Below are positions 27,346 through 31,652 of a stretch of 32,830 nt of DNA, piece after piece. Each line of letters begins with the position of its first letter. The stretch's first letter is position 1. Origin of the DNA: Acidimicrobiales bacterium. GTDB lineage: Bacteria; Actinomycetota; Acidimicrobiia; Acidimicrobiales; VFJN01. The stretch is from contig JAUXRW010000059.1 of assembly GCA_030681555.1 (NCBI GenBank), positions 1 to 32,830 on the forward strand. Direction: 5' to 3'. The notes beneath the pieces are model-generated. The model was not told the DNA's origin, searched no databases, and was given only the letters and a program-made list of their open reading frames with translations. Both the position numbers and the translations under genes were made by a program.

Positions 27346-28863
27346 TCAGGGCGTCCCGAGGCGGAGGGCCCGGACGGTGTCGATGAGGTCGGCGTCGTCA
27401 GGGTCCTTGTCCGGGCGATACCCCTTCACCCGCGCGAAGCGCAGCGCAACGCCACCCGGGTACCGCGTGCTCGTCTGCACGCCGTCCAACGCGATCTCGA
27501 CGACGAGTTCGGGGCGGACGTGCACGACGATGCCCTCCCGCGCCACCTCCCGTTCGAGGAGGGCCTCGGTCTGCCAGGCGAGAAGCGCGTCGGTGAGGCC
27601 CTTGAAGGTCTTGCCCACCATGACGAAGCCGCCGTCGGGAGCGCGCGCCCCGAGATGCAGGTTCGACAGCCATCCCTGCCGGCGCCCGTGGCCCCACTCC
27701 GCGGCCAGCACGACGAGGTCGAGTGTGCGGACGGGCTTCACCTTCCGCCACGAACCCCCTCGACGACCGGCGTCGTACGGTGAGCCGAGCGCCTTCACCA
27801 TCACGCCCTCGTGGCCGTGGGCGAGCGCGTCCGCCAGCATGGCCTCCGCCTCCGCAGGCTCCTCGGCGTAGACGCGCGGCACGGCCAGCTCGCCGACGAG
27901 GCCGTCGAGCCGATGGTGCCGAGTGGTCAGCGGCTCGTCGATGAGGTCGTCACCGTCGAGGTGCAGCACGTCGAAGAAGCGGACGAGCAGCGCGTCGCCA
28001 CCCGCCGCGGGATCGTCTCGCCCGAAGGCGGACATCGTGTCCTGGAAGGCCTTCGGCGTCGCGTCCTCGGCCAGCCACAGGATCTCTCCGTCGAGGACGA
28101 ACGTCTCGGCCGGCGCCGCGAGGGCCAGCGCGACGATGCCCGGCAGCCGGTGGGTGACGTCGTTGAGGTTGCGGGTGAAGATCCGCACCTCCGTGCCCGC
28201 CCGGTGCACCTGCACCCGTGCGCCGTCGAGCTTCCACTCCACCGACGCAGCGCCGGTGAGCGACAGGGCCTCGGTGACGTCGGTCGCGCCGGCCGCCAGC
28301 ATGGGCTGGATCGGGTTGAGCACGGCAAGGCGCACCGCCTCGAGGGCGGCCTCGCCGGGGCCGAGGGCCAGGCAGGCCGTCCGTCCGAGGTCGCCGGAGA
28401 GCATGGCGGCCCGACGCACGAGGCCGAGCGGGACGCCCGCGGCCTTCGCGACGGCATCGGTCATGATCCCGGCGAGCGCACCTTGGCGGAGGCCGCCGGT
28501 CAGCAGGTTGCGGACGAGCTCCGCCTCGGCCTCGGTGGCCCGTTCGAAGAGGGAGGTCAGCAGCGCCCGTCTGGCGGCCACGGAGCCCGACCCGCTGGTG
28601 ACGGCCAGCTCGGCGAGCGTGGCGTCGACCTCCAGCACCTCGAGGGAGGGCTCCAGCGCCGGGGTGACGTCGACCGCCACGGCGGTCCTCCAGCCGACGC
28701 CGATCCGGCCCTGGCGCGGCGCGCCGGTGAGGAAGCCGATCGTGGCCTCCACCTCGTCCGGCGCGAGCCGTCGGAGCAGGTGGACCAGCGCGGCGACCTT
28801 CGTCGTCCGCGAGCGCGTGGCGGCCACGGCGGCGGAGGTGGCGACGAGGTCGGCGAACAGCAC
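27346..28863 (-). CDS. ATP-dependent DNA ligase (LigB type)
   Basis: A 505-residue ATP-dependent ligase sealing DNA nicks. The N-terminal DNA-binding domain (1-185) starts with ATSAAVAATRSRTTKVA. The adenylated lysine is Lys211 in EWKLDGARVQ (motif I). Motif III is FVLDGEILW, with the neighbouring FFDVLHLDG. Motif IV is EGVMVKAL, motif V WRKVKP, and the C-terminal OB domain includes LALDG-like and RFARVKGYRPDKD segments. Architecture and length match mycobacterial LigB, an accessory ligase beside NAD-dependent LigA. GTG 28863 gives the family N-terminus (VLFADLV); the frame upstream to 28911 is not conserved. CACCAT lies 6 bases before the GTG, suggesting leaderless transcription. It converges on the helicase with 16 bases between. 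Confidence 0.94.
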   Translation of the reverse strand: MLFADLVATSAAVAATRSRTTKVAALVHLLRRLAPDEVEATIGFLTGAPRQGRIGVGWRTAVAVDVTPALEPSLEVLEVDATLAELAVTSGSGSVAARRALLTSLFERATEAEAELVRNLLTGGLRQGALAGIMTDAVAKAAGVPLGLVRRAAMLSGDLGRTACLALGPGEAALEAVRLAVLNPIQPMLAAGATDVTEALSLTGAASVEWKLDGARVQVHRAGTEVRIFTRNLNDVTHRLPGIVALALAAPAETFVLDGEILWLAEDATPKAFQDTMSAFGRDDPAAGGDALLVRFFDVLHLDGDDLIDEPLTTRHHRLDGLVGELAVPRVYAEEPAEAEAMLADALAHGHEGVMVKALGSPYDAGRRGGSWRKVKPVRTLDLVVLAAEWGHGRRQGWLSNLHLGARAPDGGFVMVGKTFKGLTDALLAWQTEALLEREVAREGIVVHVRPELVVEIALDGVQTSTRYPGGVALRFARVKGYRPDKDPDDADLIDTVRALRLGTP

Positions 28864-28965
28864 CCCGCCATGGTGCCAGCGTCGGCGGCGCGAGCCGGCA
28901 GACGCCACCACCGGACGCTGCGGGACGGATCTCGTCCGCCCTGTGAGGCGTTGCCGGGCCCGGCG

Positions 28966-29184: not shown

Positions 29185-29488
29185 CGACCAGGCCCCTGAT
29201 CCGGGACCCCGGGCCGGCACCGTGGACGGGCAGGGATGGCAGGGCGGGGCCACAGGCCATCGAAAGGGCACGCTCGTCACGTGCGGGCTCAGGGGCGCAT
29301 GGGATGACCCTACCGACGCGGGCCAGCCGGCAGGGGGGATTTACCGTCCGGTGAAGTTCGGCGGCGGCTCTCGAGGGACGCCCGAGGGCAGCCCTGCATC
29401 CTTCGAGGCCATCACCTCCCTGCCCCAAACCGGACCCGTGGGGTCACCTGCGCTGAGTGGCGTCGCGGAACACCACATTGACCTTGCG
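29185..29488. other. intergenic region without recognisable gene
   Basis: This stretch lies between the hairpin before the small basic protein and the operator-like repeats before the ribbon-helix-helix gene. Short open frames exist on both strands, but none has a ribosome binding site or recognisable protein. It must hold the divergent promoters; TTGACC at 29478-29483 is the only -35-like hexamer I see. Confidence 0.5.
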
Positions 29489-29508
29489 TGACGTCATAAA
29501 TGACGTCA
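29489..29508. promoter_or_regulatory. tandem TGACGTCA palindromes, candidate autoregulatory operator
   Basis: TGACGTCA at 29489-29496 and at 29501-29508 are each perfect 8-base palindromes, separated by TAAA, so their centres are 12 bases apart. They end 9 bases before the ATG of a ribbon-helix-helix protein. Such proteins bind short palindromes as cooperative dimers on repeated sites near their own promoters. Confidence 0.6.
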
Positions 29509-29517
29509 TAGTGAGGC

Positions 29518-29988
29518 ATGGACCTGACGCCGTACGTCGAGAGCCTTCGGGGAGACCTCGAGGCGGCGGCCGCAGCGGGCAGCGACGAGACGCGCGAGAC
29601 CGTCCGTCACCTGGCCGGCGCACTCGACGCGTCGGTGCGGCTGTGCTTGCTCGACGCGCTGTCGTCGATGGCGGCGGAGGTGACGGCGGCGACGGACCTG
29701 GCATCCGTGGAGATCCGGATGCACGGGCGGGAACCGCAGGTCGTCGTGACGCCCGTCGACGTCCCGTCGGCCGCCGCGCCAGAGCCCCCGGAGGACGACG
29801 AAGACGGCGCCACCGCCCGGGTGACGCTCCGACTGCCGGAGCCGCTCAAAAGCAAGGTCGACACCTGCGCGGCGGCCGCCAACCTCTCCGTCAACGCGTG
29901 GCTCGTCCGCGCCGTCGCCGGGGCCGTGCGACCCGCCGCCGCCTCCCCCCTCCGAGGCCGCCGGATCACCGGCTACGCCCGCAGCTGA
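29518..29988 (+). CDS. ribbon-helix-helix (HicB/Arc-like) DNA-binding protein
   Basis: A 156-residue protein in two parts. Residues 1-80 are a helical/beta domain I do not recognise, resembling the N-terminal region of HicB-family antitoxin annotations in actinobacteria. An acidic linker (EPPEDDEDG) leads to a C-terminal ribbon-helix-helix at about 100-138: strand ARVTLRLPEPL, helix A KSKVDTCAAAANL, helix B SVNAWLVRAVAGAV. No toxin gene is adjacent. The next gene, 15 bases on, encodes a DUF4097 protein, a pairing I recall from other actinobacteria. It probably represses its own operon through the twin TGACGTCA sites. GTGAGG gives a close, weak ribosome site. Confidence 0.8.
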   Translation: MDLTPYVESLRGDLEAAAAAGSDETRETVRHLAGALDASVRLCLLDALSSMAAEVTAATDLASVEIRMHGREPQVVVTPVDVPSAAAPEPPEDDEDGATARVTLRLPEPLKSKVDTCAAAANLSVNAWLVRAVAGAVRPAAASPLRGRRITGYARS

Positions 29989-30003
29989 ACGAACCGAGGA
30001 ACC

Positions 30004-30801
30004 ATGCCCACCGCCACCCACCGCTTCGCCACCCCGGAGCCGATCACCCTCCGCCTGCGCAACCACGCGGGCTCCGTCGAGATCCTCGCCAGCGAGACCG
30101 ACGAGACCGTCGTCGAGGTCACGGGCCACCCCGACGAACCGGCCACCGTCGAGCTGTCCGCCGACAGCCGCACCCTCGTCGTGGAGCCCGAACGGGGGCG
30201 CCGCATCCACCGGCACCGGCTCGACATGGTCGTCCGCCTGCCGGCCGGCTCACTCGTGCACGCGCACACCGCTGCTGCGTCGGTGGAGGTGCGGGGCCGG
30301 ATCGCCGAGTTCGACGCAGCCACGGCCAGCGGCCGGGTGTCGGCCGAGGAGGTCGCCGGCCGAGCCGAGGTGTCGACCGCAAGCGGGTCGGTCCGGTTCG
30401 GACGGGTCGGCGGGTCGGCGTCATTCCAGAGCGCCTCGGGATCCCTCGAGGTCGAGCACGTCGGGCAGGCCTGCACGGCGCGCACGGCGTCGGGATCGGT
30501 GCAGATCGGCTTGGCGGACGGCGACGTCGCCGCCACCACCGTGTCCGGCACCGTGGCCGTGCGGGAGGTGCACCGCGGGATCGTCGACGTGAGCTCCACG
30601 TCGGGCCGGGTCGACGTGGGCGTGCGGCGCGGCACGCTGGTGTGGCTCGACGTCTCCAGCGTCGCCGGGCGCACCCGCTCCGACCTTGCGCCGGAGGACG
30701 GCGCCGGAGGGGGCGCGGGATCGACGCTCTCGCTGCGGGCGCACTCCGTGAGCGGCGCCGTCACCGTGAGCCCCACGGGCGCCGCCCCCATCGCCCTCTG
30801 A
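30004..30801 (+). CDS. DUF4097 family beta-strand repeat protein
   Basis: A 265-residue protein with no signal peptide or membrane helix. An N-terminal strand-rich section (ITLRLRNHAGSVEILAS) leads to about six repeats of 18-20 residues containing TASG or a variant: TASGRVSAEEVAG, STASGSVRFGRVGG, QSASGSLEVEHVG, RTASGSVQIGLADG, TTVSGTVAVREV, SSTSGRVDVG. This is the beta-solenoid pattern of DUF4097/adhesin-like proteins. Function unknown; being cytoplasmic and paired with a DNA-binding protein, it may be a sensor or scaffold rather than an adhesin. ATG 30004 has GAGGA upstream. Confidence 0.88.
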   Translation: MPTATHRFATPEPITLRLRNHAGSVEILASETDETVVEVTGHPDEPATVELSADSRTLVVEPERGRRIHRHRLDMVVRLPAGSLVHAHTAAASVEVRGRIAEFDAATASGRVSAEEVAGRAEVSTASGSVRFGRVGGSASFQSASGSLEVEHVGQACTARTASGSVQIGLADGDVAATTVSGTVAVREVHRGIVDVSSTSGRVDVGVRRGTLVWLDVSSVAGRTRSDLAPEDGAGGGAGSTLSLRAHSVSGAVTVSPTGAAPIAL

Positions 30802-30977: not shown

Positions 30978-31652
30978 TCAGGTGGCGACGGGGTTGTCCA
31001 CCGCCGATGCGATCGCGACGAAGTGGCACACCACCGCAGCGACCACGAGAACGTGCCAGACCTCGTGGTAACCGAAGACGCGGGGGAAGGGGTCGGGCCA
31101 GTTGGTGGCGAGGAAGGTCGCGCCCACGGTGAACAGCAGTCCGCCGATGGCGATCAGCGCGAGCTCCGCGCCGGACAGGTTGCGAACCAGCTGGGGTGCG
31201 GCGATCAGGGCCGCCCAGCCGAGGGCGATGTAGAGCGAGCCCCGGGCGATGCGGCTTCGGCGCCCACCGGTGAAGGCCAGCACTGCCCCGAGCACGGCCC
31301 CCGCCCAGGCGAGGACCAGCATCAGCGGAGCCACCCAGCCCTGCATCGCGACGAGGCACAGGGGCGTGTAGCTGCCGGCGATCATCACGAAGATCGTCGC
31401 GTGGTCGAGCTTCTGCATCCGGCTGCGGGCCGCCTGCGACCAGCGGCCGCGGTGGTATGAACCGCTGACCCCGAACAGCGCGACGAGGGCGACGGCGTAG
31501 ACGGCGGCACCCACCCGGCCCTCAGTGGTGTCGGCGAGGGCGACCACGGCGACGCCGGCCGGGACGGCCAGGAAGAAGCACACGAGGTGGAGCCAGCCGC
31601 GGAGCAGCGGCTTCGCGAACAGCTCGGCGACGACACGGGTCGGCTCGGTCAT
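30978..31652 (-). CDS. hemolysin III / PAQR family membrane protein
   Basis: A 224-residue, seven-helix membrane protein of the PAQR/hemolysin III family. Conserved metal-site residues are visible: SGSYHRGRW after the second helix, LDHATIFVMIAGSYTP in the next, and FGYHEVWHVLVVAAVVCHF near the C-terminus, which supplies His-x3-His. Bacterial members are of uncertain function; membrane-fluidity sensing and hydrolase activity have been proposed. The ATG at 31652 has no Shine-Dalgarno sequence; TAGCCT nine bases upstream suggests a near-leaderless transcript. It is divergent from azlC across only 42 bases. Confidence 0.9.
   Translation of the reverse strand: MTEPTRVVAELFAKPLLRGWLHLVCFFLAVPAGVAVVALADTTEGRVGAAVYAVALVALFGVSGSYHRGRWSQAARSRMQKLDHATIFVMIAGSYTPLCLVAMQGWVAPLMLVLAWAGAVLGAVLAFTGGRRSRIARGSLYIALGWAALIAAPQLVRNLSGAELALIAIGGLLFTVGATFLATNWPDPFPRVFGYHEVWHVLVVAAVVCHFVAIASAVDNPVAT

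Follow-up and report, generated by a model that had tools for sequence, protein, structure and literature searches.

Computational analysis of the 32,830-nucleotide stretch of Acidimicrobiales DNA considered here at its full length (the window) revealed a gene for a predicted ribbon-helix-helix (RHH) protein, ORF1, followed by a gene for a DUF4097 (Toastrack) protein, ORF2; this gene pair is conserved, its tandem palindromic operator is conserved in sequence and position, its relatives are linked to exporters, and its second member has the Toastrack beta-helix fold. We consider it rather probable (roughly 70%) that the pair is an autoregulated transcriptional switch from an exporter-controlling family, present here in a pump-less, two-gene form that comprises the RHH repressor and its Toastrack partner.

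Table. Features of the RHH-Toastrack locus and its surroundings, in window coordinates
Feature	Position	Strand	Remarks
ATP-dependent DNA ligase, neighbour of the pair	27346-28911	-	no evident functional link
-35-like TTGCGT	29484..29489	+	17-nt spacing to CATAGT; nearest relatives have TTGACT/TTGCRT, spacer 17
Putative operator box 1, TGACGTCA	29489..29496	.	exact palindrome; in most relatives a box at -30/-29
Putative operator box 2, TGACGTCA	29501..29508	.	exact palindrome; in most relatives a box at -19/-18
-10-like CATAGT	29507..29512	+	5 nt before ATG
Degenerate third box, TGAGGCAT, overlapping the ATG	29512..29519	.	11 bp after box 2
ORF1, predicted RHH repressor, 156 aa	29518..29988	+	profile and model
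ORF1 N-terminal domain: helices 4-19 and 23-59, beta-hairpin 62-79	29518..29757	+	model
RHH domain, residues 100-137	29815..29928	+	profile and model; C-terminal in ORF1
DNA-facing strand RVTLRLP with Thr103	29824-29826 (Thr103 codon)	+	residue class tracks operator sequence
Conserved C-terminal tail GRRITGYARS, after a linker	29956..29985	+	motif in 114 of 116 loci with DUF4097
ORF2, predicted cytoplasmic Toastrack (DUF4097) beta-helix protein, 265 aa	30004..30801	+	Pfam and model
HlyIII-like membrane protein, neighbour of the pair	30978-31652	-	no evident functional link

The window contains exactly two copies of TGACGTCA (by exact match), with both their starts and their centres 12 bp apart; nine bases separate the second copy from the ATG of ORF1, and a 15-base gap separates the stop codon of ORF1 from the start of ORF2. 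An earlier note on this DNA had described this arrangement, namely paired palindromes, an antitoxin-style autorepressor and a cytoplasmic beta-repeat partner with no toxin, and the distances and reading frames bear out the description at the level of the layout. Overlooked in that note were the degenerate third box, at the position of which the relatives have a good box, TGACGTCATGG or TGGCGTCATGG, and the -35/-10 pair around the boxes. Given that the -10-like element is so close to the ATG, the window transcript is probably leaderless. A lone TGACGTCA is unremarkable, with 0.69 expected per shuffled window; two copies within 14 bp were encountered in none of 3000 Markov sequences of window length, and a chance origin of the box pair was rejected. 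The pair is flanked by the DNA ligase gene upstream and by the HlyIII-like gene downstream, the latter on the other strand, so the operon in the window includes neither an ABC ATPase nor a permease and, as regards membership in the PSP/Lia systems, no PspA, PspC, LiaF or membrane-anchored Toastrack adjoins it.

The lack of conserved palindromes in front of orthologous pairs had been named beforehand as the outcome that would speak against the proposed module, and conserved box pairs were found: tandem exact TGRYRYCA boxes at a pitch of 11-12 bp are located just upstream of ORF1 in 55 of 81 loci, compared to 3 of 638 control stretches taken further upstream (Fisher p 2e-58). The boxes cluster at about -52, -30, -18 and -7 relative to the ORF1 start and therefore lie on one face of the helix. 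In 82 of 106 box-bearing loci, they are surrounded by -35 and -10 elements spaced 17-18 nt apart and, in 69 of these 82, the -10 element ends 6 nt before the ATG; the boxes fill the -35/-10 spacer, and the promoter abuts the start codon. In the deeper lineages, the boxes are found 130-300 bp upstream of ORF1, leaving room for a small ORF. Across 24 whole genomes, the twin pattern is found mainly at the ORF1 promoter and often nowhere else, with the exception of one genome (G206). Conversely, when 345 genomes of the window's class were scanned for the operator first, 73 of them gave hits (the reversed-pattern control gave 1 hit). ORF1 relatives are present in 60 of these 73; in a comparison set of 73 operator-less genomes, chosen from the same listing and mostly among its more complete genomes, they are present in 13 (p 3e-15).

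The assignment of ORF1 to the RHH (MetJ/Arc) fold draws on profile and model, both with weak scores, which together yield a beta-strand followed by two helices, with the DNA-facing R-x-[TNS]-x-R strand. The family profile weakly matched the RHH repressors AtaR, VapB26, Arc and Mnt in the PDB (E 0.03-0.23), and residues 102-132 showed a weak match to Pfam HicB, an RHH family, at 16.6 bits, below the cut-off of 21. The structural model, of moderate confidence (pLDDT 76.5, pTM 0.41), contains the RHH helices 108-120 and 125-137 and gave weak matches to Arc, AtaR and VapB26. A fold search of the N-terminal domain (~80 residues) against the PDB produced no meaningful match. The C-terminal tail is retained also in three loci in which no DUF4097 was detected (L063, L086 and L089), and the idea of a strict tie between the tail and DUF4097 was dropped for this reason.

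The central residue of the DNA-facing strand goes with the box sequence: threonine, serine or alanine accompanies TGAyrTCA boxes in 28 of 28 loci, and asparagine accompanies TGGyrCCA boxes in 72 of 73. Such a match fits direct recognition and, should the rule be true, T103 would pair with TGACGTCA and an asparagine at 103 with TGGCGCCA. Since about four changes are seen on the tree and 1-3 independent pairs are available, common descent could also account for the match, and we rejected the covariation as proof of contact.

ORF2 matched Pfam PF13349 (DUF4097) with an E-value of 2.8e-10 (40.4 bits, cut-off 22.9) and was modelled as a beta-helix with a mean pLDDT of 94, the best PDB matches of the model being the DUF4097-type structures 4qrk (E 1.6e-8), 3pet and 3lyc, and also 4opw. 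It is the sole DUF4097 protein of the window genome. Inspection of the sequence revealed no membrane segment and a conserved, hydrophilic N-terminus with the family motif MPxFxTPEPI, which fits a cytoplasmic protein; at this level of inspection, the previous observation that the protein carries no export signal holds.

A DUF4097 gene directly follows ORF1 in 116 of 124 complete ORF1 loci, mostly from Actinomycetota. A search with ORF2 gave a match in 33 of 296 genomes of the phylum, and all 30 ORF2 loci that were fetched include an upstream ORF1 relative, save where none was detected at the fetched edge. The ORF1 profile detected relatives in 45 of 396 sampled genomes of the phylum (11%), and the pair is common in Streptomyces; the 80 named loci come from Streptomyces, Kitasatospora, Micromonosporaceae, Pseudonocardiaceae and Rhodococcus and, outside Actinomycetota, from Candidatus Dormiibacter. 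Relatives of ORF1 are found on plasmids as well, and none was found in phage records. The nearest ones belong to Geodermatophilaceae MAGs (57-58% identity), and ORF1 is absent from the sampled genomes of the same genus and the same family, so the window copy may have been acquired horizontally or else lost by its relatives. The window version groups with relatives from Geodermatophilaceae, Catellatospora and Hamadaea that lack ABC genes, as do its nearest relatives (L053-L055); the pair's neighbours are common to eight such ABC-less relatives, and those recognised in L054 are RNase J, ThyX and an AlkZ-like glycosylase. Two loci, L171 and L173, encompass stand-alone RHH genes that have operators and are devoid of both DUF4097 and the C-terminal tail; both adjoin dapA, and L171 adjoins an RNase J gene, too.

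In Streptomyces and many other bacteria, a DrrA-like ABC exporter is encoded behind the RHH-DUF4097 pair; an ABC ATPase gene comes after the pair in 67 fetched loci, and the one that was tested is of the DrrA type. On annotated plasmids, the gene order is RHH, DUF4097, ABC ATPase, ABC permease, with ABC genes in four of the five plasmid loci, the fifth of which, inside a biosynthetic cluster, consists of the pair alone. The operator is also found away from the pair. Among 21 non-self sites with the 11-bp pitch in several families of the window's class, all inspected individually, 14 are at exporters: 11 are promoters of a single MFS family (members 46-93% identical; TIGR00900 antiporter and Mef-like by NCBIfam, below the cut-offs), and three precede a gene for a DrrA-like ABC ATPase. 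As near-identical pairs are among these sites and a few families contribute them all, they represent fewer than 14 independent events. Sites with a 12-bp pitch or with TGATATCA boxes are mostly unrelated, e.g. those at HigBA-type loci. In the window genome, the scan for twins recovered the pair's own promoter, an exact twin at a HigBA-like locus (C97:23259) and a third site with two mismatches; beyond the own promoter, no further module site or exporter site was found there. A regulon within this genome was accordingly rejected, and the exporter role is deduced from the relatives.

Twin sites of 12-bp pitch are located at HigBA-like (XRE antitoxin) loci both in the window genome (L052:1501-1520, that is, G000:C97:23259-23278) and in G545 (L297), so another regulator uses a similar box. 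Several of the remaining non-self sites precede short ORFs of ~35-60 codons. In L272, L273, L279, L285 and L291, near 2500-2650, short ORFs lie directly behind good twin or triple boxes and are alike between related genomes; they might encode leader peptides or else small proteins belonging to the regulon. In L230 (7511-8872), an MFS exporter is preceded by a TTGACA promoter with twin boxes, ~4.5 kb from an RHH-Toastrack pair; L262 has a similar layout, and so do L261, L264 and L267, with a DnaE2-like neighbour.

MetJ, Arc and CopG are RHH repressors with tandem palindromic operators, and the MetJ box, AGACGTCT, recurs with a pitch of 8 bp. ORF1 resembles these proteins in the RHH fold and in the 8-bp palindromic tandem boxes within the core promoter that it is predicted to bind; the MetJ box itself is similar to TGACGTCA, although the pitch in the window family is 11-12 bp, not 8, and ORF1 differs from all three in having an extra N-terminal domain and a C-terminal tail and no known co-repressor. 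From RHH biology, we infer that ORF1 binds the conserved palindromic boxes as a dimer and represses its own synthesis. One dimer would occupy each 8-bp box and, given a box spacing of about one helical turn, adjacent dimers would bind next to each other; the bound protein would cover the -35/-10 region and turn its own promoter off. The co-expressed ORF2 would most likely be a binding partner that tunes or relieves the repression, with envelope stress or drug stress as possible triggers. That the Toastrack protein tunes DNA binding by ORF1 is a plausible conjecture and, together with the nature of the signal, the least certain part of the scheme. In the relatives, the same operator would drive drug-type exporters, both within the operon (DrrA-like ABC ATPase and permease) and in trans (Mef-like MFS and DrrA-like ABC). 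A bolder proposal, to which we assign slightly less than even odds, is that these systems form a distinct family in which the operator affinity of an RHH repressor is set by a cytoplasmic Toastrack beta-helix protein sensing stress from drugs or at the envelope, with ABC and MFS exporters controlled in cis and in trans throughout Actinomycetota and the minimal, self-controlled pair as the core.

A simpler scenario, in our estimation unlikely but deserving serious attention, is that the Toastrack protein is only the output: ORF1 would be engaged in simple negative autoregulation, and ORF2 would act elsewhere, for example, as an envelope-stress scaffold, with no feedback. This would be compatible with the own promoter being the sole module operator in the window genome, with the loci L171 and L173, in which DUF4097 is missing and ORF1 persists with its operators, so that repression need not require DUF4097, and with the proposal, made in PMC11237479 for Toastrack proteins elsewhere, that they are sub-membrane scaffolds. 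However, the two genes are nearly always adjacent across deep lineages, and ORF1 possesses the conserved tail and the N-terminal domain beyond its DNA-binding part, which suggests a partner.

By contrast, it is highly improbable that the pair is a type II toxin-antitoxin system, with the RHH protein neutralising a hitherto unrecognised toxin, the Toastrack protein, even if the autoregulated two-gene layout, the patchy distribution (with absence from the sampled same-genus and same-family genomes), the presence on plasmids and the NCBI name 'toxin-antitoxin system HicB family antitoxin' all point in that direction. No toxin activity is known for DUF4097, which is a scaffold fold; exporters are found in the same operon or behind the same operator, and some loci retain ORF1 in the absence of DUF4097. 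Moreover, the RHH domain is located C-terminally in ORF1, behind a domain of ~80 residues, unlike the usual antitoxin layout, and the relatives are linked to exporters, not toxins, so the earlier suggestion that a toxin had been replaced is not supported. With the HicB antitoxin, ORF1 shares the RHH-type DNA-binding part and the weak, sub-threshold Pfam match; its partner, however, is DUF4097, exporters are linked to it, and no HicA toxin was seen beside ORF1 relatives in the annotated loci viewed; the five plasmid loci carry DUF4097. Membership in the type II or HicAB systems was rejected on the HicB score under the cut-off, the DUF4097 partner and the exporter-linked plasmid loci. The family is filed under a misleading antitoxin name and looks like a mislabelled pump-control switch. 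Finally, it is scarcely credible that the palindromes are fortuitous or serve another regulator: a single TGACGTCA is expected by chance, and 12-bp-pitch twins are found at HigBA-type loci too, but the position and pitch are kept before ORF1 orthologues across the phylum and are near-absent elsewhere, and the boxes co-occur with ORF1 and match its strand residue.

Toastrack operons, including an actinobacterial RHH-Toastrack-ABC version within the PSP/Lia world, have been reported (PMC11237479); for the RHH version, neither an operator nor a regulon nor a mechanism is given in the main text of that report. As far as that text goes, the pair described here is the same, with the same adjacency of the two genes and, in many relatives, the same ABC neighbours, which the window pair lacks; the feature in common with the PSP/Lia-world Toastrack operons at large is a cytoplasmic Toastrack beside a transcription factor. 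The PadR-HAAS-Toastrack and GntR-Toastrack-ABC operons in the same text likewise combine a small repressor, a Toastrack and membrane or export functions, but employ another DNA-binding fold and a Toastrack that is membrane-anchored or fused. In the open-licence literature, we found neither experimental work on the RHH-DUF4097 pair nor any paper dealing with its operator, with an exporter regulon or with the pair on its own; these aspects, including the pump-less form, appear to be undescribed. The characterization of the system as poorly described in the earlier note is apt in this respect but not for the gene neighbourhood, which appears in PMC11237479, nor for the proteins, which carry NCBI names. 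If the model is true, a single operator rule (twin TGRYRYCA, 11-bp pitch) would predict the controlled exporters, some of them from drug-efflux families, and the unsolved role of Toastrack would become directly testable in a two-gene system.

DUF4097 genes, some with an RHH partner or DrrA-type ABC genes, sit in antibiotic gene clusters, as seen at L051:5001-6415 and at Lun1-Lun2 and Lun25-Lun27 of S. lunaelactis, where they are listed as being of unknown function (PMC9866976). In G206, about a dozen further twin repeats with an 11-bp pitch and a different sequence, TGGTRTCAGAGTGGTRTCA, are scattered over contigs C73, C98, C149, C192, C197, C204, C205 and C412, some of them contained in L231 and L232, which suggests a different, larger regulon.
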